Assembly (NCBI RefSeq): GCF_964340395.1
Contig: NC_135559.1
Span: 18,144,550 to 18,208,549, forward strand
Length of the DNA: 64,000 nucleotides
Direction: 5' to 3'
From: Glandiceps talaboti
Lineage: Eukaryota; Hemichordata; Enteropneusta; Spengelidae
Positions 6,885 through 47,952 of the stretch are shown one piece after another. The notes below the pieces were generated by a model. The model saw only the letters and a list, made by a program, of their open reading frames with translations, did no database searches and was not told the DNA's origin. Position 1 is the stretch's first letter. Each line of letters starts with the position of its first letter. A program made the position numbers and the translations under genes.

Positions 6885-7206
6885 TTTTGTGAGTTCTACT
6901 TTGAGTTAAACCCTTTCACATTCTTTTACACATGTACAAATGGTCTTCCATTGCTCATTTCATATCCTCATATGATTCTTCAGACTGTCACTTTCATTAA
7001 ACTCTTTGTCACACTCCTTAAAGTTACACACAAATGTTCTTTTCATTTGTGCACACTACTGTGTTTCACCAGACCATGTTTATTAAATCCTTTGCTACAT
7101 TTTACACACCAAAAGTCTTTAAGTTGTGTGGTTCCACTTTGCACGTGCTTTTAAAGTGCTACTGTGAGTAAACCCTTTACCACATTCTTTACACATATAT
7201 GGTCTT
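6885..7206 (-). pseudogene. Relic terminal zinc fingers of gene A
   Basis: Beyond the stop of gene A the minus strand still encodes finger-like sequence. The terminal finger reads NERPYMCKECGKGF then THSSTLKARAKWNHTT and a stop at 7120-7122, but is in another frame because a 2-nt loss in the preceding linker (near 7207-7212) ends the main frame at IHK. Further on, FWCVKCSKGFNKHGLVKH..H and a second decayed finger follow. Equivalent relics lie 3' of genes B, C and D, so this is old shared coding sequence and not chance. Confidence 0.8.
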
Positions 7207-10200
7207 TCATTTATGGATTCCCATGTGTGACTTCAGATGTGAAGTCGTAGTAAATCCTTTACCACATTCTTTACACACATATGGTCTTTCATTTGTGTGA
7301 ATCCTCATGTGCGTCTTCAGATATGAAGTCCTAGTAAATCCTTTACCACATTCTTTACACATATATGGGCTTTCATTTGTATGGATCCCCATGTGTGCCT
7401 TCAGATTTGAAGCCAAAGTAAATCCTTTACCACATTCTTTACACACAAACATGTATGGTCTTTCATTTGTATGGATTCTCATGTGTGTCTTCAGATTACT
7501 GTTCCGATTAAACCCTTTACCACATTCTTTACACACATATGGTCTTTCATTTGTGTGAATCCTCAGGTGTGCATTCAGATTTGAAGCCATAGTAAATCCT
7601 CTACCACATTCTTTACACACGTGTGGTCTTTCATTTGTGTGAATCCTCATGTGTCTCTTCAGATGTGAAGCCATAGTAAATCCACTACCACATTCTTTAC
7701 ACACATATGGGCTTTCATTTGTATGGATCCCCATGTGTGCCTTCAGAGTATTTTTTAGATTAAACCTTTTACCACACTCTTTACATTCAAATGGTCTTTC
7801 ATTTGTGTGAATGCTCATGTGTGCCGTAAGATTTGAAGTCATAGTAAATCCTTTACCACATTCTTTACACATATACATGTATGGTCTTTCAGTTGTATGG
7901 ATTCTCATGTGTGTCTTCAGATTACTATTTCGATTAAACCCTTTACCACATTCTTTACACACATATGGTCTTTCATTTGTGTGAATCCTCATGTGTTCCT
8001 TCAGATTTGAAGTCTTAGTAAATCCTTTACCACATTCTTTACACACATATGGTCTTTCATTTGTGTGAATCCTCATGTGTCTCTTCAGATGTGAAGCAAT
8101 AGTAAACCCTTTACCACATTCTTTACACACATATGGTCTTTCATTTGTATGGATCCCCATGTGTTCCTTCAGAGTATTTTTTAGATTAAACCCTTTCCCA
8201 CACTCTTTACATTCAAATGGTCTTTCATTTGTATGGCTTATCATGTGTGTCTTCAGATTACTGTTTCGATTAAACCCTTTACCACATTCTTTACACACAA
8301 ATGGTCTTTCATTTGTGTGAATCCTCAGGTGTGCCTTCAGATTTGAAGCCATAGTGAATCCTCTACCACATTCTTTACACACATATGGTCTTTCATTTGT
8401 GTGGATCCTCATGTGTCTCTTCAGGTTTGAAGCCATTGTAAACCCTTTACCACATTCTTTACACACATATGGTCTTTCATTTGTATGGATCCCCATGTGT
8501 TCCTTCAGAGTATTTTTTAGATTAAACCCTTTACCACATTCTTTACATTCAAATGGTCTTTCATTTGTATGGCTCATCATGTGTGTCTTCAGATTACTAT
8601 TTCGATTAAACCCTTTACCACATTCTTTACACACAAATGGTCTTTCATTTGTATGAATCCTCATGTGTGCCTTCAGATTTGAAGCCATAGTGAATCCTCT
8701 ACCACATTTTTTACACACATGTGGTCTTTCATTTGTGTGAATCCTCATGTGTCTCTTCAGATGTGAAGCAATAGTAAACCCTTTACCACATTCTTTACAC
8801 ACATATGTGCTTTCATTTGAATGGATCCCCATGTGTGCCTTTAGAGTATTTTTTAGATTAAACCCTTTACCACACTCTTTACATTCAAATGGTCTTTCAT
8901 TTGTGTGAATCCTCATGTGTGCCTTAAGATTTGAAGTCATCGTAAATCCTTTACCACCTTCTTTACACACATACTTGTATGGTCTTTCAGTTGTATGGAT
9001 TCTCATGTGTGTCTTCAGATTACTATTTCGATTAAACCCTTTACCACATTCTTTACAAACATATGGTCTTTCATTTGTGTGAATCCTCAGGTGTGCCTTC
9101 AGATTTGAAGCCATAGTAAATCCTTTACCACATTCTTTACACACGTGTGGTCTTTCATTTGTGTGAATCCTCATGTGTCTCTTCAGATGTGAAGTCATAG
9201 TAAATCCTCTACCACATTCTTTACACACATATGGGCTTTCAATTGTATGGATCCCCATGTGTGCCTTCAAAGTATTTTTTAGATTAAACCCTTTACCACA
9301 CTCTTTACATTCAAATGGTCTTTCATTTGTGTGAATCCTCATGTGTACCTTCAGATATGAAGTCCTAGTAAATCCTTTACCACATTCTTTACACACACAT
9401 GGTCTTTCATTTGTGTGGATCCTCATGTGTGCCTTCAGATGTGAAGTCATAGTGAATCCTTTACCACATTCTTTACACACATGTGCTCTTTCATTTGTGT
9501 GGCTCATTATGTGTGTCTTCAGAGTACTATTTTGATTAAACCCTTTACCACATTCTTTACATACATACTTGTATGGTCGTTCAGTTGTATGGATTCTCAT
9601 GTGTGTCTTCAGATTACTATTTCGATTAAACCCTTTGCCACATTCTTTACACACATATGGTCTTTCATTTGTGTGAATCCTCAGGTGTGCCTTCAGATTT
9701 GAAGCCATATTAAATCCTCTACCACATTCTTTACACACGTGTGGTCTTTCATTTGTGTGAATCCTCATGTGTCTCTTCAGAGTATTTTTTAGATTAAACC
9801 CTTTACCACACTCTTTACATTCAAATGGTCTTTCATTTGTGTGAATCGTCATGTGTGCCTTAAGATTTGAAGTCACAGTAAACCCTTTACCACATTCTTT
9901 ACACACATATGGTCTTTCATTTGTGTGAACCCTCATGTGTGCCTTCAGAGTATTTTTTAGATTAAACCCTTTACCACACTCTTTACATTCAAATGGTCTT
10001 TCATTTGTGTGAATCGTCATGTGTGCCTTAAGATTTGAAGTCATAGAAAATCCTTTACCACATTCTTTACACACATATGGTCTTTCATTTGTGTGAATCC
10101 TCATGTGTGCCTTCAAATTTGAAGCCATATTAAATCCTCTACCACATTCTTTACACGCGTGTGGTCTTTCATTTGTGTGAATCTTCATGTGTCTCTTCAG

Positions 10201-23439: not shown

Positions 23440-24560
23440 TTGAGTTACACCCTTTCACATTCTTTCACACATGTACAAATGGTCTTCCATTGCTCATTTC
23501 ATATCCTCATATGATTCTTCAGACTGTCACTTTGATTAAACTCTTTGTCACACTCCTTACAGTTACACACAAATGTTCTTTCATTTGTGTGCACTACTGT
23601 GTTTCACCAGACCATGTTTATTAAATCCTTTGCTACATTTTACACACCAAAAGTCTAAGTTGTGTGGATCCACCTTGCACATGCTTTTAAAGTGCTACTG
23701 TGAGTAAACCTTTTACCACATTCATTAGTACACACATAAGGTCTTTCATTTAAGTGTATTCTCATGTTTGTCTTCAGACTGTTATTTCGATTAAACCCTT
23801 TACCACATTCTTTACACACATATAGTCTTTCATTTGTGTGGGTCCTCATATGTGCCTTCAGATGTAAAGTCACAGTAAACCCTTTACCACATTCTTTACA
23901 CACATATGGTGCTTCATTTATGGATTCTCGTGTATTTTCAGATGACTATTTTGATTAAACCCTTAACCACATTCTTTACACACACATGGCCTTCATTTGT
24001 GTGAATCCTCATATGTGCCTTCAGATGTGAAGTCACAGTAAACCCTTTACCACATTCTTTACACACATATGGTCGTTCATTTGTGTGAATCCTCATATGT
24101 GCTTTCAGATGTGAACTCATAGTAAACCCTTTACCACATTCTTTACACACATATGGTCTTTCATTTGTGTGAATCCTCATGTGTGTCTTCAGATTTGAAG
24201 CCATAGTAAATCCTCTACCACATTCGTTACACACATATGGTCTTTCATTTGTGTGGATCCTCATGTGTGTCTTCAGAGTATTATTTCGATTAAAACCTTT
24301 ACCACATTCTTTACATACAAATGGTCTTTCATTTCTGTGAATCCTCCTGTGTCTCTTCAGATGTGAAGTCACAGTATATCCTTTACCACATTCTTTACAC
24401 ACATATGGTCTTTCATTTGTGTGAATTCTCATGTGTGTCTTCAGATTACTATTTCGATTAAACCCTTTACCACACTCTTTACATACATATGGTCTTTCAT
24501 TTGTGTGGGTCCTCATATGTGCCTTCAGATGTTAAGTCATAGTAAACCCTTTACCACATT
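23440..24560 (-). pseudogene. Disrupted 3' finger tail of gene B
   Basis: The array of gene B continues past its stop in other frames. Six fingers lie in 23975-24516, two more plus the terminal finger (ECGKRFTHSSTLKA) in 23655-23903, then decayed relics to 23440. Breaks are a linker change at about 24580 giving IHKFSTICV-stop, a TCA-to-TAA change near 24533, a short deletion near 23985 and a 2-nt loss near 23915. The 23906-24516 block is a near copy of 24575-25330, so part of the tail arose by internal duplication. Confidence 0.8.
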
Positions 24561-24562
24561 CT

Positions 24563-27007
24563 TTACACACATATGGTGCTAAATTTATGGATTCTCATGT
24601 GTGATTTCAGATGACTATTTTGATTAAACCCTTTACCACATTCTTTACACACATATGGTCTTTCATTTGTGTGAATCCTCATATGTGCCTTCAGATGTGA
24701 ACTCATAGTAAACCCTTTACCACATTCTTTACACACATATGGTCTTTCATTTGTGTGAATCCTCATATGTGCCTTCAGATGTGAAGTCACAGTAAACCCT
24801 TTACCACATTCTTTACACACATATGGTCGTTCATTTGTGTGAATCCTCATATGTGCCTTCAGATGTGAACTCATAGTAAACCCTTTACCACATTCTTTAC
24901 ACACATATGGTCTTTCATTTGTGTGAATCCTCATGTGTGTCTTCAGATTTGAAGCCATAGTAAATCCCCTACCACATTCGTTACACACATATGGTCTTTC
25001 ATTTGTGTGGATCCTCATGTGTGTCTTCAGAGTACTATTTCGATTAAAACCTTTACCACATTCTTTACATACAAATGGTCTTTCATTTCTGTGAATCCTC
25101 ATGTGTCTCTTCAGATGGGAAGTCACAGTATATCCTTTACCACATTCTTTACACACATATGGTCTTTCATTTGTGTGAATCCTCCTGTGTGCCTTCAGAT
25201 GTGAAGCCAAAGTAAATCCTTTACCACATTCTTTACATACATATGGTCTTTCATTTGTATGGATTCTCATATGTGTCTTCAGATTACTATTTCGATTAAA
25301 CCCTTTACCACATTCTTTACACACATATGGTCTTTCATTTGTGTGGGTCCTCATATGTGCCTTCAGATGTGAAGTCATAGTAAACCCTTTACCACATTCT
25401 TTACACACATATGGTCTTTCATTTGTGTGAATCCTCATGTGTCTCTTCAGATGTGAAGTCACAGTAAATCCTTTACCACATTCTTTACACACATATGGTC
25501 TTTCATTTGTGTGACTCCACATGTGTCTTTTCAGATCACTATTTTCATTAAATCCTTTACCACATTCTTTACATACATATGGTCTTTCATTTGTATGGAT
25601 TCTCATATGTGTCTTCAGATTACTATTTCGATTAAACCCTTTACCACATTCTTTACATACAAATGGTCTTTCATTTCTGTGAATCCTCATGTGTCTCTTC
25701 AGATGTGAAGTCACAGTAAATCCTTTACCACATTCTTTACACACATATGGTCTTTCATTTGTGTGACTCCGCATGTGTCTTTTCAGATGTGAAGTCTTAG
25801 TAAACCCTTTACCACATTCTTTACACACATGTGATCTTCCATTTGTGTGGATCATGTGTGCCTTCAGATTACTATTTTGATGAAATCCTTTACCACATTC
25901 TTTACATACAAATGGTCTTTCATTTGTGTGAATCCTCCTATGTGTCTTCAGATGTGAAGTCATAGTAAACCCTTTACCACATTCTTTACACTCATATGGT
26001 CTATCATTTGTGTGAATCCTCCTGTGTGCCTTCAGATTACTATTTTCATTTTTTTTCTCATAACAAGTTTGGCAACAAAGCAGTTTATTCTTAGTTTTGC
26101 CTACTGTATATGCTTTCACATGATGACTCATATCATTAACATTTGTACCAGGTATGTCAATTTGGATTTGGGATTGATCACATGAGGTAGTCTCTATGTT
26201 GGCTTTTCCCAAGTGAGTCTCACAAACAGTTTCATCACTCTCTGTTTGCATACTTGAACAGTTTCCATCTGTCCTTTGTAAATTAAGGTTCTTATCATGA
26301 TTATCTTCTGGTATTTGACCACAAGTAAAATCTACTTGCTCTATCTGAATAGGGAAGGGATTCTCAGATCTATTCATACAATTTTTTTGTCCTAGTGTGG
26401 ACAAGTTGTTCTCTGAGTCTACTCCTCCAGATAGTTGTTCAGCAGCCTTGACATTGATAGTTTGGTCAGGACAGTGTTCTCCATTATTTTTAGATTCTTC
26501 ACTGATTACTTTCCAGTAACTATGAGCAGTGTCACTAACATGTTCCTCATCTTCTATCTTTACTTGTATATCCTCCTTCACTTTGTCATTGGAAAAGATA
26601 TTTTTTGTATCCAGTTTTAATATGGTTTCAGTGCTGACTGGCCTCAGTTCATTTGAATAATGCATATTTTTCAAATCACATCTACTGGCATCACATTGAC
26701 TGCTATTGTTTACGTAGTCTTCATGTTGTACTGTTATCTTCTCTTTCACTTGTGTCTGCTCTTCATCTTTGATCGAGATAGGTTCACTAGGACAGTAAGA
26801 GGAATCCATCAGATTACACATGGTGTTGTTTTTTTGCTGACTGTGTAGAGAGTGGTTGTTCTCAGGTTGTTCTTCATATCTGACTGAGATGTGTTCACTA
26901 GGAAAGTGAGAGGAATCCATCACATTACACATGATACCATTTCCTTGATGACTGTGAAGTGGATCAGTGTTTATAGAATCTTCTTCCTTGACAATAATTT
27001 TGTCCAT
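24563..27007 (-). CDS. Polydactyl C2H2 zinc-finger protein B (17 fingers)
   Basis: Predicted protein of 814 residues, one coding exon. The N-terminal 330 residues match genes A, C and D and include psi-K-x-E motifs (VKEE near residue 7, IKDE, VKED, VKIE). They also hold a segment of about 33 residues (NMHYSNELRPVST..ILKLDTKNIF) shared with D but absent from A and C. Seventeen complete C2H2 fingers with TNERP linkers follow; helix cores are mostly TxTSHLKxH and NxNSNLKTH. The frame ends inside a linker (IHKFSTICV) because of a sequence change, so the protein lacks the fingers still encoded downstream. The start is supported by homology with A and D and by an acceptor TTTTAACAG about 45 nt upstream. 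It is probably expressed as a truncated but otherwise intact regulator. Confidence 0.85.
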   Translation of the reverse strand: MDKIIVKEEDSINTDPLHSHQGNGIMCNVMDSSHFPSEHISVRYEEQPENNHSLHSQQKNNTMCNLMDSSYCPSEPISIKDEEQTQVKEKITVQHEDYVNNSSQCDASRCDLKNMHYSNELRPVSTETILKLDTKNIFSNDKVKEDIQVKIEDEEHVSDTAHSYWKVISEESKNNGEHCPDQTINVKAAEQLSGGVDSENNLSTLGQKNCMNRSENPFPIQIEQVDFTCGQIPEDNHDKNLNLQRTDGNCSSMQTESDETVCETHLGKANIETTSCDQSQIQIDIPGTNVNDMSHHVKAYTVGKTKNKLLCCQTCYEKKNENSNLKAHRRIHTNDRPYECKECGKGFTMTSHLKTHRRIHTNERPFVCKECGKGFHQNSNLKAHMIHTNGRSHVCKECGKGFTKTSHLKRHMRSHTNERPYVCKECGKGFTVTSHLKRHMRIHRNERPFVCKECGKGFNRNSNLKTHMRIHTNERPYVCKECGKGFNENSDLKRHMWSHTNERPYVCKECGKGFTVTSHLKRHMRIHTNERPYVCKECGKGFTMTSHLKAHMRTHTNERPYVCKECGKGFNRNSNLKTHMRIHTNERPYVCKECGKGFTLASHLKAHRRIHTNERPYVCKECGKGYTVTSHLKRHMRIHRNERPFVCKECGKGFNRNSTLKTHMRIHTNERPYVCNECGRGFTMASNLKTHMRIHTNERPYVCKECGKGFTMSSHLKAHMRIHTNERPYVCKECGKGFTVTSHLKAHMRIHTNERPYVCKECGKGFTMSSHLKAHMRIHTNERPYVCKECGKGFNQNSHLKSHMRIHKFSTICV

Positions 27008-34626: not shown

Positions 34627-37600
34627 TTAAGTTTTGTGGTTCCACTTTGCATGTGCTTTTAAAGTGCTACTGTGAGTAAACCTTTTACCACATTCTTTAG
34701 TACACACATAAGGTCTTTCATTTGTGTGGCTCAACATGTGTGTCTTCAGATTACTATTTCGATTAAAACCTTTACCACATTCTTTACACACAAATGGTCT
34801 TTCATTTGTGTTAATCCTCATGTGTGCCTTCAGATTTGAAGCCATAGTAAACCCTTTACCACATTCTTTACACACATACGGGCTTTCATTTGTGTGGATT
34901 CTCATGTGTTCCTTCAGATTACTATTTTGATTAAACCCTTTACCACATTCTTTACTCACATATGGTCTTTCATTTGTGTGGATCCTCATGTGTGCTTTCA
35001 GATGTGAAGTCGTAGTAAACCTTTTACCACATTTTTCACACGTGTGGTCTTTCATTTGTGTGATTCATCATGTGTCTCTTCAGATTACTATTTTGATTAA
35101 ACCCTTTACCACATTCTTTACACACATATGGTCTTTCATTTGTGTGGATCCTTATGTGTGCCTTCAGAGTATTTTTTAGATTAAACCCTTTACCACATTC
35201 TTTACACACAAATGGTCTTTCATTTGTGTGAATTCTCATGTGTGTCTTCAGATACGAAGTCACATTAAATCCTCTACCACATTCTTTACACACATGTGGT
35301 CTTTCATTTGTGTGAATTCTCATGTGTGTCTTCAGATTACTATTTCGATTAAACCCTTTACCACATTCTTTACACACATAAGGTCTTTCTTTTGAGTGGA
35401 TTCTCATGTGTATCTTCAGATGTGAAGCCATAGTAAACCTTTTACCACATTTTTCACACATGTGTGGTCTTTCATTTGTGTGATTCATCATGTGTCTCTT
35501 CAGATTAATATTTTGTTGAAACATTTTACCACATTCTTTACTCACATATGGTCTTTCATTTGTGTGGATCCTCATGTGTGCTTTCAGATGTGAAGTTGTA
35601 GTAAACCTTTTACCACATTTTTCACACATGTGTGGTCTTTCATTTGTGTGATTCATCATGTGTCTCTTCAGATTAATATTTTGTTGAAACCCTTTACCAC
35701 ATTCTTTACACACATATGGTCTTTCATTTGTGTGGATCCTCATGTGTCTATTCAGAGTACTATTTCGATTAAACATTTTACCACATATTTCACACATATA
35801 TGCTCTTTCATTGGTGTGGATCTTCATGTGTTCCTTCAGATTTGAAGTCATACTAAATCCTTTACCACATTTTTTACACACATATGGGCTATCATTTGTG
35901 TGGATTGTCATGTGTCTCTTCAGATGTGAAGCCAAATTAAATCCTTTACCACACTCTTTACATACATATGGGCTATCATGTGTGTGGATTGTCATGTGTC
36001 TCTTCAGATGTGAAGTCCAAGTAAATCCTTTACCACATTCTTTACACACATGTGGTCTTTCATTTGTGTGGATCTTCATGTGTGTCTTCAGATTTGAAGT
36101 CATAGTAAACCCTTTACCACATTCTTTACGCACATATGGTCTTTCTTTTGAGTGGATTCTCATGTGTATCTTCAGATGTGAAGTCATAGTAAACCCTTTA
36201 CCACATTCTTTACACACATGTGGTCTCTCATTTGTGTGGATTGCCATGTGTCTCTTCAGATGTGAAGTCATAGTAAACCATTTACCACATTCTTTGCACA
36301 CATATGGTCTTTCATTTGTGTGAATCTTCATGTGTGCCTTCAGATTTGAAGTCATAGTAAACCCTTTACCACATTCTTTACGCACATATGGTCTTTCTTT
36401 TATGTGGATTCCCATGTGTATCTTCAGATGTGAAGTCATAGTAAACCCTTTACCACATTCTTTACACACATGTGGTCTCTCATTTGTGTGGATTGCCATG
36501 TGTCTCTTCAGATGTGAAGTCATAGTAAACCATTTACCACATTCTTTGCACACATATGGTCTTTCATTTGTGTGAATCTTCATGTGTGCCTTCAGATTTG
36601 AAGTCATAGTAAACCCTTTACCACATTCTTTACGCACATATGGTCTTTCTTTTATGTGGATTCCCATGTGTATCTTCAGATGTGAAGTCATAGTAAACCC
36701 TTTACCACATTCTTTACACACATGTGGTCTTTCTTTTGTGTGTATTGTCATGTGTTTCTTCAGATGTGAAGTCATAGTAAACCCTTTACCACATTCTTTA
36801 CACACATATGGTCTTTCATTGTGTGTCTTCAGATTACTGTTTTCATTTGTATGTATCCTTACATGTTTTTTCTCATAACAAGTATGGTAACAAAGCAGTC
36901 TATTCTTAGTTTTGTCTACTGTATATGCATTCACATGATGACTTGTATCATTAACATTTGTACCAGGTATGTCAATTTGGATTTGGGATTGATAATCACA
37001 TGAGGTAGTCTCTATGTTGGCTTTTCCCGAGTGAGTCTCCCAAACAGTTTCATCACACTCTGTTTGAATACTTGAACAGTTTCCATCTGTCCTATGTAAA
37101 TTAAGTTTCTGGTTCACATTCTTATCATGATTATCTTCTGGTATTAGACTACAAGTAAAATCTACTTGCTCTATCTGAATAGGGAAGGGATTCTCAGGTC
37201 CATTCATACAATTTTCTTGTCCTACTGTGGGCAAGTTGTTCTCTGAGTCTACTCCTCCAGATAGTTGTTCAGCAGCCTTGACATTGATAGTTTGGTTAGG
37301 ACAGTGTTCTCCATTATTTTTTAATTCTTCACCGATTACTTTCCAGTAACTATAAGCAGTGTTAATAACATCTTCCTCATCTTCTATCTTTACTTGTATA
37401 TCCTCCTTCACTTTGTCATTGGAATCACATCTACTGGCATCACATTGACTCTTATTGTTTACGTAGTCTACATGTTGTACTGTTATCTTCTCTTTCACTT
37501 GTGTCTGCTCTTCATCTTTGATCGAGATAGGTTCACTAGGAGAGTAGGGGGCATCTACATTACACATGATACTGTTTTCTTGATGACTGTGAAGAGAGTG

Positions 37601-38666: not shown

Positions 38667-40552
38667 CGGTCCTACTAATTACTGCCCGGGAGATACAAGA
38701 AGTGCACGGGAGCAAACTGGTGGCCAAATGGCACTCAAAAGTCGATATTTATGTGCATTGGCCCACTTCGAATATATATTGACCAAAATTTAGTGGATTC
38801 ACGCCCCTGATTGATGCTTTTCCAGTTATAAATTTTCTAGCGTGTTACAGACATTGCATGGCTACTGCATATATTACTGCCCGGGACACATCTGGCCTGC
38901 CCGCGCCAAATTTAGATGTCTAATCGATATCAAAAGTCGATTCGTAAATAAACTAGAATGTTACGAACCCTATCTAACCTAAGTTACGATCATTCAAGTC
39001 TTCTTTTATCATTTTTCAGGCTAAAAACCGTTCGTTCACCTAGATCTCTGTACTGTACAGTATACCTAGATACCTAGATCTATACCTAGATCTCTGTACT
39101 GTACAGTATTGATAGACTTTAGACAGGCTTGGAGACAGACTGGATGATGTGTGTAGATGAAGAACATTTGGGAGTTTTTGCAGACAAGCTTCCTATGTAA
39201 ACTTCAGTGGAATGTACTCAATCGTAATGTTAGGTACACAAACCAAACGGCCCTTTTCAGGGCCACCATTTACATACTCCAAAAAGAGATGCCTGAGCCA
39301 TGTATATTGATATAGTTTTAAATGTATTACCCTTCCGCAATTTCAAAGTTCCCCGGGCACTTGATATATGTCCCCTCCCCTATCTTAGGAACGCCATTAC
39401 TAAGCGCCGGTTTGTATGGGTGACCACGACGGCAATTGTCGGTCCCAAAATGTCAGTTTTTAATTCTTGAAATTATACAATTTTGTAGCTATGCCCTTCT
39501 AAGTATCTATACTGTACATCTATATAGTTTTAATGGTGTTATTGAGGTACAATCTTAGGAAACAACGTTAACGCCAGTTATTTATGGATATGGAAATATG
39601 GGGGGGGGGGGGGTTAATCTAGGTAAAATTTCACCGAGGATAACCATTTTGTTTTGGACATTTCCAAATGAAAATAATTGTAGAGGTCAGCGTCGTTGAG
39701 GCGAGAGTAGATAAACCTGTAATAAAGTCTAGATATTAACATGCATGGTCAAATGTGAAAATAACGTATGATTTGACTGAATGTAGGAAAATGTGTGAAG
39801 ACAATGTTAACTTGTATCACAGTTAACTGTTATTATTAAAGATGCAGAACATATAGGCCTACGTGTCCACCTACTTGTATTGAAAAAAATTGCACTACCT
39901 CTCTGCGCTGCCTCTGGCACGCCTGGTTATCCTGTGTGAGAGAAACCCTACAATAGCAAGTATTGTATCTTTGAATACATATCGTATTCAACAACATTGA
40001 TATGATATGATTTAATCTAGTAGTATATTGATACATTCAGTCACATGTATGATATATTATCGCGTGACAATAATTTCCGTGTAAATTTCTCTCACACGGG
40101 CGTCATGGTTACGTGGGCAATTTAAGGCCGTTACTAAGGCTAAGCCCCCCTTCTACATATTCCAGGAAACAAGATGGCGCAGATAGACTGTACAGTACAG
40201 AGATCTAGGTGAACGAACGGTTTTTAGCCTGAAAAACGATAAAAGAAGACTTGAATGATCATAGGTTAGATAGGGTTCGTAACATTCTGGTTTATTTACG
40301 AATCAACTTTTGATATCGATTAGACGTCTAAATATGTGTCCCGGGCAGTAGCCATATGCAATGTCTGTAACACGTTAGAAAATTTAAGACTGGAAAAGCA
40401 GCAATCGGGGGCTTGAATCCACTAAATTTTGGTTAATTCGAAGTGGGCCAATGCACATAAATATCGACTTTTGAGTGCCATTTAGCCACCAGTTTGTTCC
40501 CGGGCAAATATCTCCCGGGCAGTCAGTAGGACCGGTTAAATTAGTAGGACCC
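38667..40552. mobile_element. 1.9-kb foldback TIR element in intron of gene C
   Basis: Arms of about 400 bp are inverted (38668-39115 against 40190-40552): GGTCCTACTAATT ends, then GCCCGGGAGATA, CAAAAGTCGATATTTATGTG and GGCTAAAAACCGTTCGTTCA in mirrored order. TATCACAG flanks both sides (38659-38666, 40553-40560). The matching site at B (27254-27268) is uninterrupted. Superfamily is unassigned; an 8-bp duplication fits hAT or P. The centre holds a poly-G run and no transposase. Confidence 0.85.
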
Positions 40553-40865: not shown

Positions 40866-41069
40866 TCTATAAGGTACGCCTTGACGGGGCGCCCTCACAC
40901 ATCTGCCAACCCCTCCACAAAGTGAGAGGAGGCCGGTGAGGGCGGAACGTCACTACGTATCTTACAGCCTTGTCATACATACGAAGAACTGGAAGACTAG
41001 AAGAAATAATATCAACATTGACAAACAAGACCGATAATAATATATTACTCTGTCCTTCATGTTTGTAAA

Positions 41070-41480
<411 letters not shown>

Positions 41481-42663: not shown

Positions 42664-42746
<83 letters not shown>

Positions 42747-42885: not shown

Positions 42886-43109
42886 GTCAGTCATGAAATA
42901 ATGTTTCCTCATTTGTGCACAAGTTTCTCATTTACTATGATTGCCTTCACATCCATGCCAAGGAGATTAAGGAAATGTCAACTACTAAAATCCCTCATTG
43001 TACATTTGTATCTCTCTTATTTTCGGAATGTGTAATGTAAAGATGCAAATAATAATGTTATGGGCATTAAAGTAGGAGTTTATGAGTTTAAGCCACACTT
43101 TAACATAAT

Positions 43110-43365
43110 GTGTTCCTTCAAACATATTATGTGAGTTCTACTTTGAGTTACACCCTTTCACATTCTTTTACACATGTACAAATGGTCTTCCATTGCTCAT
43201 TTCATATCTTCATACATTTCTTCAGACTGTCACTTTGATTAAACTCTTTGTCACACTCCTTACAGTTACACACAAATGTTCTTTCATTTGTGTGCATTAG
43301 TGTGTTTCACCAGACCATGTTTATTAAATCCTTTACCACAGTCTTTACATACAAAGGGTCTTTAA
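43110..43365 (-). pseudogene. Downstream fingers cut off from gene D
   Basis: Minus-strand sequence encodes RPFVCKDCGKGFNKHGLVKH, a TNAHTNERTF linker and a second unit with CNCKECDKEFNQSDSLK. The first finger is better kept than at A, B or C. It continues the frame of gene D directly after its TAA, but a 1968-bp transposon now lies between. Confidence 0.8.
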
Positions 43366-45333
43366 AGTGTACATGCAAAGGTTCATGATTTTTTTCGTAA
43401 TTAAGTTTATTTTGCCATAAAAATAAAGGAAATCGAGTTTGTAATAGTACAATATAATTCTAACACGAGAAATTGCGCGAAGAATGAGACACTCTCGGCT
43501 CAGCCACAGAGCACCTTCAGGTAAGTACCTCTCATTTGCATATGGATAGGACAGTGTTTGGAACTTTATGACGTCACTGCAGGAACACAAACGCGTTCAT
43601 CAGTGTATCTTTACATGCAAAGCCATTATGGTCGAACCAGAAGGTCAACTTCACAACCCGTTTCGCCAGAACCCGACGTTCGTTAAATATTGGTAGCGTA
43701 GAGCAATACACTCCAGCATTAACATCTGATGGTGTGATTTAGCCAAATTCATTCAAACCAACCACTAGCAGTAATGAAAGTTCCTCTGGTAGTGAATGAG
43801 TGAGGAAGGTGTGGTCAACCACAGAGACTGAATGTCACTGCTTTACAAGGTTTTTTCCAATGTAAATTTCACTGACAAATGTAGTCATGGCTAGTACACA
43901 TTATATGTAGTAGTATACCTGTGTTTAAATATCCATCATGAAAGTTTAGTGCTTGTTTTCTGACTATGCCTTGCTGTCTTGTACTGCAACATGGACCATA
44001 TGTTTATGTGTCCTAGTGAAGCCGTGTTGTTTACATAAAGTGAAGGCTGTTATCACCATCCTTTATTGACATAACTATTCAATCGGTGGAAAACAGCTCC
44101 TGCAGACAATCTAATCGAAATGAAAATTATCTAATATTTCCGTACCCATCAAACAAACAGAGATCGGATGAGAATGGCTTCAAGAGTTCCCCATAATATT
44201 TTCTCAAGTTGTTCAGATGTAGCATGTGTCATAACAGTACATTCGATCTACATTTGTATGACCATTCAAAATCTTCATGAAAATAGACACACAAATTCGT
44301 TAGAGCAGAACATTTGTTGGATAACCATCCCTCTTGAAAGCTATGTGTACACACACTTTATTTCATTTTTTACTGCGTTCATTACCATCCACACAGTGAC
44401 ATGAAGTGGTTTCATCTTCTTTCAAAGCACAGCCCGTGTTCACTGAAGCCGGCTGTACTAGTGTATTGCGTATTGTCTTCGACCATTTTTGTTTGAGTTT
44501 TTTATGGATAGACATGTCTTACGTTGTGGAAGTTATTTGACCTGGGAGCGTGAAGCTTAGTGTTGACTGTACTTTGCTGTGTCCATTCACTTTGGACATG
44601 TGATTGGCATGACACAGTAATTGTTCAGGTAGACAAAACAATGGAAACAAAAATAGCAACATTATAATGAGCGTTGCATCTTTTTACTTTGATATGATTG
44701 CGATGATGTACATGTGATGTATCACAATGAAAACGATCGACTCCCAGCAACATGGAAATCAAAACATACAATCGGACTACGCATTGTTTCCGAAAAATGC
44801 TATCGTACTGAAAATATTTTATGAAGCTAACTTGCTTTCTTAAAAACATCATTTCAAATTATTTTATTTGTTTTCTTTTTTTTCGCTTCGATCATGGCTA
44901 CACCGGTGGCGTGGAGAATCCAGGCCCAGGTAGCATTTACCAGTTTTCACTGTATGGCGTCACTGTCCAGTTTTTACGCGTGGTTTCAACTGCCTTCACC
45001 CATTATTACCTACTCAGTTATATCACTCGGAAATGTGTGTAGGGTGATCGTTTCACTGTGGGTGCTGCCGACAAAACACCAAGGAACCATTGTTGTCGGA
45101 AGACTAAACTGGTACACCACAATATGTACAGTTACAGATAATACTATATGGCAAGCGTAATTAGTAATTCATAAGTAAACATTACACAAAGGCTTAGAAG
45201 TTAGTCAAAGCACGGGATTTGCGACTTTCTTGCCAATGCGAACAATATTTAGAGGTATGAATGCAATTTCATTTATTTTTATGGCAAAATAAACATAATT
45301 ATGAAAAAAATTATCAACCTTTGCATGTACACT
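43366..45333. mobile_element. TTAA-flanked TIR transposon at the stop of gene D
   Basis: The ends are inverted over about 70 bp: AGTGTACATGCAAAGGTT at the left, AACCTTTGCATGTACACT at the right, then AAGTTTATTTTGCCATAAAA and its inverse. TTAA stands at 43362-43365 and 45334-45337. Genes A, B and C have no insert here. No intact transposase is visible in either strand, so it is probably non-autonomous. Confidence 0.85.
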
Positions 45334-47073
45334 TTAAGTTGTGTGGATCCGCCTTGCATGTGCTTTTAAAGTCCTATTGTGAGTAAACGTTTTACCACAT
45401 TCTTTACACACATATGGTCTTTCATTTGTGTGGATCCTCAAATGCTCTTTCAGATCACTAGCATGAGCAAATCCCTTGCAACAGTCTTTACATACAAATG
45501 GTTTTTCATTTGTATGTATAATCGTGTGCCTTAGCAGACTCATTCTATGCTTAAACCCTTTACCACATTCTTTACACACATATGGTCTTTCATTTGTGTG
45601 AATCCTCATGTGTATCTTCAGACTACTACTTTGATGAAACCCTTTACCACATTCTTTACACACATATGGTCTTTCATTTGTGTGGATTCTTATGTGCGTT
45701 ATAAGACTAGTTCTGCGTGTAAATCCTTTACCACATTCTTTACATACAAATGGTCTTTCACTAGAATGGATTATCATATGCCGTAATAGATTACGCCTGC
45801 CTTTAAATCCTTTACCACACTCTTTACACAGAAATGGTCTTTCATTTGTGTGAATCCTCATGTGTGTTTTCAGATTACCATTTTCATTAAACCCTTTACC
45901 ACACTCTTTACATACATATGGTCTTTCATTTGAATGGATAACTGTGTGTCTTATTAGACTCCTTCTATGCTTAAACCCTTTACCACATTCTTTACACAAA
46001 AACGGTATTTCATTTCCATGAATCCTCATGTGTGCCTTCAGATTGTTTTGTTGACTAAATCCTTTACCACATTCTTTACACACATATGGTCTTTCATTTG
46101 TATGGATCATCATGTGTCTTTTCAGACTGGCGTTTTGATTAAAGTCTTTACCACACTCTGTACATGCATATGGGCATTCATTTGTGTGGGTCCCGACATG
46201 TTTTTTGTCATAGCAACCAAGGTAAAACTCTCTATAACAAAGTGGCCTCTTCTTAGTTTTGTCTACTGTATATGCATTCACATGATGACTTGTATCATTA
46301 ACATTTGTACCAGGTATGTCAATTTGGATTTGGGATTGATAATCACATGAGGTAGTCTCTATGTTGGCTTTTCCCGAGTGAGTCTCACAAACAGTTTCAT
46401 CACACTCTGTTTGAATACTTGAACAGTTTCCATAAGTCCTATGTAAATTAAGTTTCTGGTTCACATTCTTATCATGTTCATCTTCTGGTATTTGACCACA
46501 AGTAAAATCTACTTGCTCTATCTGAATAGGGAAGGGATTCTCAGATACATTCATACAATTTTCTTGTCCTAGTGTGGACAAGTTGTTCTCTGAGTCTACT
46601 CCTCCAGATAGTTGTTCAGCAGCCTTGACATTGATAGTTTGGTCAGGACAGTGTTCTCCATTATTTGTTGATTCTTCACCGGTTACTTTCCAGTAACTAT
46701 AAGCTGTGTCACTAACATGTTCCTCGTCTTCTATCTTTACTTGTATATCCTCCTTCACTTTGTCATTGGAAAAGATATTTCTTGTATCCAGCTTTAATAT
46801 GGTGTCAGTGCTGACTGGCCTCAGTTCATTTGAATAATGCATATTTATCAAATCATATCTACTGGCATCACATTGACTTCTATTGTTTACGTAGTCTTCA
46901 TGTTGTACTGTTATCTTCTCTTTCACTTGTGTCTGTTCTTCATATTTGACTGAGATAGGTTCACTAGGACAATAAGAGGAATCTACCACATTACACATGA
47001 TACCATTTTCTTGATGACTGTGAAGTGGATCGGTGTTTGTAGAATCTTCTATCTTGACAATAATTTTGTCCAT
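45334..47073 (-). CDS. C2H2 zinc-finger protein D (10 fingers), intact
   Basis: Predicted protein of 579 residues in one exon. The N-terminus (1 to about 290) matches B most closely, including the NMHYSNELRPVST segment, and has VKIE, VKYE, VKED and VKIE motifs. Ten C2H2 fingers follow with TNERP linkers. Their contact residues are more varied than in A-C (for example KHRRSLIRH, TRRTSLITH, HQSSSLKIH, AHASDLKEH). The last unit, ECGKTFTHNRTLKAHARRIH, is the family's terminal finger and is in frame only here. An in-frame TAA 21-24 nt upstream of the ATG supports the start. The stop TAA overlaps the TTAA target of the neighbouring transposon. Confidence 0.9.
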   Translation of the reverse strand: MDKIIVKIEDSTNTDPLHSHQENGIMCNVVDSSYCPSEPISVKYEEQTQVKEKITVQHEDYVNNRSQCDASRYDLINMHYSNELRPVSTDTILKLDTRNIFSNDKVKEDIQVKIEDEEHVSDTAYSYWKVTGEESTNNGEHCPDQTINVKAAEQLSGGVDSENNLSTLGQENCMNVSENPFPIQIEQVDFTCGQIPEDEHDKNVNQKLNLHRTYGNCSSIQTECDETVCETHSGKANIETTSCDYQSQIQIDIPGTNVNDTSHHVNAYTVDKTKKRPLCYREFYLGCYDKKHVGTHTNECPYACTECGKDFNQNASLKRHMMIHTNERPYVCKECGKGFSQQNNLKAHMRIHGNEIPFLCKECGKGFKHRRSLIRHTVIHSNERPYVCKECGKGFNENGNLKTHMRIHTNERPFLCKECGKGFKGRRNLLRHMIIHSSERPFVCKECGKGFTRRTSLITHIRIHTNERPYVCKECGKGFHQSSSLKIHMRIHTNERPYVCKECGKGFKHRMSLLRHTIIHTNEKPFVCKDCCKGFAHASDLKEHLRIHTNERPYVCKECGKTFTHNRTLKAHARRIHTT

Positions 47074-47952
47074 GTCTTGAGAAAAGTAGTATGATTAACC
47101 AAACAAGTCAAGTACCTGTTAAAATGGAAAATATAAGTTTTGAAAATCAACTGTATTATTGGTTAGTCTTGCGACATGTAAATTCAGATCATATTACATA
47201 ATACAAAAAGTATAGTCATGCATATCATTTGGTGTGTGTACATTAACCCTATAATAACTATTTAGTTTCTGTAACAATTCTATTAACAGATACAACTCAA
47301 ATCTGATGATAATCTGTTGAAAACAGCATAAATACTCTTGAATTATACAAAATCCTGTATGGCTTGCAGCATTTGTTGCTGGCACTTGCAGAATTAAACT
47401 TGTACCCTTTTCTGAGTATAACATCAACAGCACTGGGAACTAGTGGGAGACACTAGATCTAAGGGCACTAAGGCTGTGGTCTGGATTATGGTGGGGAGGG
47501 GCCACAAAAAACATTGGGAGTGCAAGGGGAAGGGAAGCTACAAAAATTTATGGGTTCATCTCGGGCCAGGGGGTGCCATTTTTTGAGTGTGTGAAGGGGG
47601 GGGGGCTGCAATTATTTTCTCACCCCTCCCTCACTGTAAATTCTGACCGTAGCCTAAAAACCCGCAACACATGCTACAAGGGACTATCAACATGAAGTGG
47701 CAATTCGCTACTTTTACTCAGTTACATGTACATGTAATTTGTAGCATGGATGTATATGAGGAGATAGTCCTTTCAGACAAGGAAAGTCAGGACAGGACAA
47801 TGTGCCTCACCTTCTCCACCAGTGACATTATTCGAGTCCTGTACACCATTTGGAATTGTCATGTTTCACGCCGGGACTCGATTTCTGACATTAATTGAGG
47901 GACATTGCCAGTATCATGTCCAACTACAGTAAGTAACTACACCAGTAGCTGC

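Follow-up and report, generated by a model that had tools for sequence, protein, structure and literature searches.

In one zinc-finger gene of the hemichordate Glandiceps talaboti, here called gene D, a transposon occupies the stop codon. The arrangement is very probably explained by the insertion of a non-autonomous TTAA element with Kolobok-type ends, in gene D only, at a T-TAA stop that D had inherited together with its three neighbours. The window, i.e. the whole stretch of DNA that was analysed, was 64,000 nucleotides long (positions 18144550-18208549 of contig NC_135559.1), and genome searches were carried out over 590 Mb in 47 contigs. Four tandem C2H2 zinc-finger genes (A-D) were found in the window, all on the minus strand. 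The long frame of A ends at 7207, that of B at 24563, that of C at 35036 and that of D at 45334. Tandem C2H2 fingers were identified in gene D by Pfam (PF00096 zf-C2H2, 10 stretches, E 2e-62). The coordinates of all features are given in Table 1.

Table 1. Features of the gene D insertion and of the homologous sites in genes A, B and C (window coordinates)
Feature	Position	Strand	Basis and remarks
Homologous stop TAA in A	7119..7121	-	ACT TAA; TTAA intact, empty; A frame stops before it (7207)
Homologous stop TAG in B	23655..23657	-	ACT TAG; two bases fewer, without TTAA; B frame stops before it (24563)
Homologous stop TAA in C	34627..34629	-	ACT TAA; TTAA intact, empty; C frame stops before it (35036)
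Site in D lacking the distal AATAAA of A/B/C	~43092..43103	-	Apparent 11-bp deletion relative to B, between AAAGTGT repeats; read from alignment
Decayed finger sequence, once directly after the stop in the empty allele	43245..43361	-	Alignment; close matches only A-D among those scored
TTAA target-site copy, side of the orphaned 3' tail	43362..43365	.	
Non-coding TTAA-specific DNA transposon, Kolobok-like by termini	43366..45333	.	1,968 bp; family copies; longest internal frame 109 aa
Left terminal inverted repeat, 68 bp	43366..43433	+	Arm comparison; 40 scored genome matches
Right terminal inverted repeat, 68 bp; first sequence past the gene D stop	45266..45333	-	
AATAAA in right repeat, candidate polyadenylation signal	45272..45277	-	56 nt past the D stop, with no AATAAA nearer to it
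Gene D stop TAA	45334..45336	-	Inside gene-side TTAA
TTAA target-site copy, gene side	45334..45337	.	
Gene D last coding exon (putative)	45334..47073	-	ATG 47073 to TAA 45334, 579 aa, C2H2 zinc fingers; ORF, translation, Pfam; ATG counted by eye

Elsewhere in the window, a histone 3' UTR stem-loop (RF00032, 35.9 bits) was detected at 39244-39290 on the plus strand; at gathering thresholds, Rfam gave no other match in the window. The window also has long simple repeats of AT and AC at 41042-41428 and 42667-42743, and the AT repeat region contains inverted arms as long as 146 nt.

At the insertion site, the element has the termini AGTGTACATGCAAAGG and CCTTTGCATGTACACT, and one copy of TTAA abuts each end. 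The ORF of gene D, read from stop to stop on the minus strand (45334-47094, 586 aa), ends ...RRIHTT*, and its frame runs through ...CAC ACA ACT TAA before passing into the element sequence AGTGTACATG. The TAA lies entirely within the gene-side TTAA. When the flanks of D were joined without the element, CACACAACTTAAAGACCC was obtained, which is in register with the AAT GAA AGA linkers of the finger array; before the insertion, the empty D allele would have read CACACAACTTAAAGACC. The target duplication of the element is TTAA, which leaves the four letters on both sides and ACT TAA on the gene side, and the old 3' tail (decayed finger and UTR) is now separated from the stop by 2 kb. Because the duplicated TTAA contains the D stop, the element leaves the protein encoded by D unchanged, and the insertion would presumably have been tolerated for that reason. 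A TTAA-specific element spares a protein only when it inserts outside the reading frame or at a T-TAA stop.

The sequence-only reading had placed a transposon exactly on the gene D stop, with the stop kept, and both points were borne out by the TTAA on either side and by the TAA within the gene-side copy. Its description of this site as the only TTAA target there holds for 28 bp upstream and 34 bp downstream, but not further: the body of the ORF contains nine more, of which the one at 45366 is closest, and downstream another follows at 43324. Of the window, 62,028 bp lie outside the element; 369 TTAA were counted there, including the nine in the D frame. The same reading held that the duplicated TTAA gives gene D its stop back; ACT TAA is indeed intact, but the wording is too strong, since D had a stop throughout.

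The ends of A, B and C were aligned with the joined flanks of D, a comparison that the sequence-only reading had itself put forward as a check. All four genes have the same last finger, a stop at one common codon position and the same decayed tail, and the element is absent from A, B and C. The sequence past the stop in the joined D flanks is finger-derived. When the genome was searched with the D tail, A, B, C and D were recovered at 90-100%, all within the window, and the next scored match was at 74% (40 of 144 first-look candidates scored). Because the four genes share both the stop codon position and the decayed tail, and close matches to that tail are confined to these four among those scored, we conclude from the alignment that the linker stop is older than the split of A-D, and hence older than the insertion. 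The ancestor of A-D would already have had a stop at this linker codon.

The sequence-only reading had favoured a different order, in which the stop arose in D by a GAA-to-TAA change in a finger linker, and this change also made the TTAA that was later used by the transposon. Such a history is very unlikely. It draws on the finger-like sequence after the stop and on the ACT GAA AGA linkers of gene A (L008, position 985), which are one substitution away from ACT TAA AGA; yet A, B and C stop at the same codon and carry the same decayed tail, so any GAA-to-TAA change predates D, and its link to the insertion is indirect. The proposed tie between a stop-making change in D and the insertion was therefore abandoned, with the TTAA still empty in A and C. 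What survives of the proposal is an older event: ACT TAA AGA was confirmed by alignment at the homologous place in gene A, though A's own frame ends before it, and a GAA-to-TAA change in a linker is a plausible origin of the stop in the ancestor of A-D. That ancestral change cannot be polarised, since the search did not yield a close relative in which this linker still works.

For comparison with more distant sequences, the D tail was matched by BLAST to 16 paralogous stretches: finger matches were at 72-82%, one 70-bp piece reached 88.6% in L039, and no match to the whole tail was obtained among the BLAST matches listed, which reach at least tail position 121. At 12.49-12.51 Mb of contig C5, two distant zinc-finger paralogs (L049 and L050) stop at a linker reading ACT TAA AGA, with readable fingers beyond it. 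These are other linker stops containing TTAA, and they do not polarise the D stop, because their linkers appear to carry extra bases. Further along the tails of the four genes, homology between A/C and B/D breaks just past the AATAAAGTGTG region (at ~6850 in A, 23380 in B, 34360 in C and 43095 in D), and beyond this break one continuation is common to A and C and another to B and D.

The structure of the element was read directly from the window and from its family copies. Together with the TTAAs, its inverted arms (43362-43433 and 45266-45337) are 72 nt long and 93% complementary, and the longest stop-to-stop frame lying wholly inside it encodes 109 aa. At least 193 matches were obtained in a genome search with the element (40 of 806 first-look candidates scored). 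For a family this large, an occasional insertion at a stop codon would be expected, on general grounds rather than by calculation, so the location by itself is unsurprising. The TTAA specificity that the sequence-only reading had proposed was upheld across 30 sampled family loci (L009-L038, D included), where TTAA was found next to 59 of 60 termini: 31 of 31 on the left and 28 of 29 on the right, with sides named by orientation within each locus, the exception being a TTAG in L014. One loose terminus match in L023 was left out of this count by the position filter, and the loci are not all independent, as L035 and L036 have common flanks and may represent one insertion event. Two loci with one terminus each (L018 and L026) were excluded from the 28 full copies that were compared.

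A second genome search, with the 68-bp repeat, returned matches for all 40 candidates scored (363 first-look candidates). One further copy opened from this search (L055) is non-coding, with TTAA at both ends. No autonomous, transposase-bearing partner was seen among the repeat-search matches (40 of 363 candidates scored, with L055 as the one new place opened). Two loci show more complex arrangements: in L013 a partial copy of the element adjoins a full copy with four bases (TTAA) between them, and in L015 the flank and left end are present twice, 233 bp apart. Inside the element in gene D, at 44890-44928 on the plus strand, a frame reads DHGYTGGVENPGP, which resembles the core of 2A ribosome-skipping peptides. 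By pattern search, a 2A-like stretch was found in 22 of 28 copies (GG(V/M)ENPGP in 21 and SGVENPGP in one; six without a match), and its presence is probably due to chance.

By its ends and target, the element fits a Kolobok-like, non-autonomous transposon: AG...CT termini combined with TTAA agree with Kolobok rather than with piggyBac. Kolobok elements are characterized by 5'-RR and YY-3' termini and a TTAA target (PMC9587614), and Xenopus Kolobok elements by AG termini and TTAA (PMC6004289). The family has a 4-bp TTAA target duplication at the 59 termini counted above and at both ends of L055, and its termini are AG...CT, with AA at one end of L014. That the element is instead a piggyBac-type transposon is highly improbable. 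The TTAA target duplication is compatible with that assignment, being common to Kolobok and piggyBac (PMC9587614, PMC10813416). However, the conserved piggyBac end motifs described in PMC10813416 (CACTA, CCCTC, CCCTT and CCCAT) all begin with C and none of them is present at the ends of the element, which starts with AGTGT and, beginning with AG and ending with CT, follows the RR...YY rule of Kolobok.

Among described relatives, the XKol elements and T2-MITEs of Xenopus share with the Kolobok-like element the TTAA duplication, the AG termini and a many-copy non-autonomous family structure, but their own repeat sequence differs from its 68-bp repeat (PMC6004289). KolobokP has Kolobok-type RR...YY ends, as the element does; unlike the element, it is described in PMC9587614 as having long terminal direct repeats (~450 or 660 bp), inverted repeats no longer than 18 bp, and solo repeats whose flanking duplications are mostly of 3-4 or 4-5 bp. 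Identity with KolobokP was rejected: the element has 68-bp inverted repeats, and no direct repeat of at least 30 bp was found when its interior was searched.

Gene D is the only one of the four in which the last-exon frame is open from the ATG to the shared stop. Its ATG at 47073 lies just past a splice acceptor whose conservation in A, B and D was judged by eye. The element copy in D is the most diverged of the 28 two-ended copies, with 91 of 1,742 sites off the majority state (90 in a second count, the difference being a tied column). Its terminal branch, at 0.0437, is likewise the longest. It also carries 12 private gaps, which reduce to nine groups once adjacent gaps are counted together, as was done for three of them at 45197-45218; eight of the nine are not a multiple of 3. 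At element rates, ~2-4 stops and ~7 frameshifts would be expected in the 586-codon D frame, and the chance of none is roughly 1e-4 to 1e-5, an estimate that varies with the grouping of adjacent gaps: with all 12 gaps counted separately, ~11 frameshifts would be expected and the chance of none is at most 3e-6. This clock may overstate the age of the insertion, since part of the divergence of the element may predate it, and the right ends of the element are of at least two types. Because the frame of D is still open beside an element copy more diverged than any of the other 27, it has probably been held open by selection since the insertion.

For the N-terminal part of the genes (238-295 codons, finger arrays excluded), point estimates of dN/dS between D and A, B or C were 0.49-0.59 (NG86) and 0.48-0.72 (YN00). 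Among A, B and C, point estimates for the same part were 0.79-1.44 (NG86), and 1.2 and 1.9 (YN00, without A-C). These figures bear on an unlikely reading in which D is dying, the insertion is neutral debris and the frame is open by luck or through recent gene conversion from another copy. The cluster as a whole is decaying: in each of A, B and C the frame breaks off ahead of the shared stop, and C has a further early stop near the N-terminus. An open frame of 586 codons beside eight grouped frame-breaking indels would nevertheless be improbable without selection, by the rough estimate above, and dN/dS is lowest, as a point estimate, in the comparisons that include D.

The right repeat of the element places an AATAAA shortly after the stop of D, and AATAAA is present at ~260 nt past the stop in A, B and C and missing from this place in D. 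Because the element AATAAA lies 56 nt past the stop and the distal AATAAA is absent, it is plausible that the D mRNA now ends in transposon sequence, a point that the sequence-only reading had put more firmly, in which case it would end at or soon after the AATAAA of the repeat. A precedent is offered by PGBD3 in human CSB, a TTAA-flanked transposon in a host gene whose transcripts end just beyond the transposon's own polyadenylation site (PMC2268245). PGBD3 differs in being intronic, in encoding a transposase and in making a fusion protein (PMC2268245), whereas the element in D is non-coding, follows the stop directly and does not alter the encoded protein.

Several observations weigh against a 3' end made by the transposon. 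In 27 of 28 element copies an AATAAA lies in the terminal 75 nt on the right, which makes it a feature of the family, not an acquisition of D. The last 116 bp of the D element are conserved no better than the rest (6 of 116 sites changed as against 84 of 1,626, Fisher p = 1.0), and selection on the proposed 3' UTR is therefore not apparent. A proximal AATAAA is found in the decayed finger of all four tails (in D, on the far side of the element), and it may be that the distal one was never the signal in use. We therefore regard as doubtful, if still worth stating, the fuller scenario in which the repeat became the working 3' end of a selected gene D, the only intact gene of the four, its AATAAA replaced the native signal, and the distal AATAAA, no longer needed, was then lost by the 11-bp deletion.

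The titles and abstract openings of the literature consulted contained no account of a TTAA transposon lying naturally on the stop codon of a host gene, which is a weak negative. Gene D provides a natural example of a TTAA transposon entering a gene at its T-TAA stop, so that the protein is unaffected and the post-stop sequence is replaced. With three sister genes lacking the insertion in the same window, the order of events can be read (stop first, insertion later), and the decay of the element serves as a rough clock for judging the open frame of D. T-TAA stops would be permissive for any TTAA-specific element, and such insertions may in general offer genes new 3' ends at little cost.
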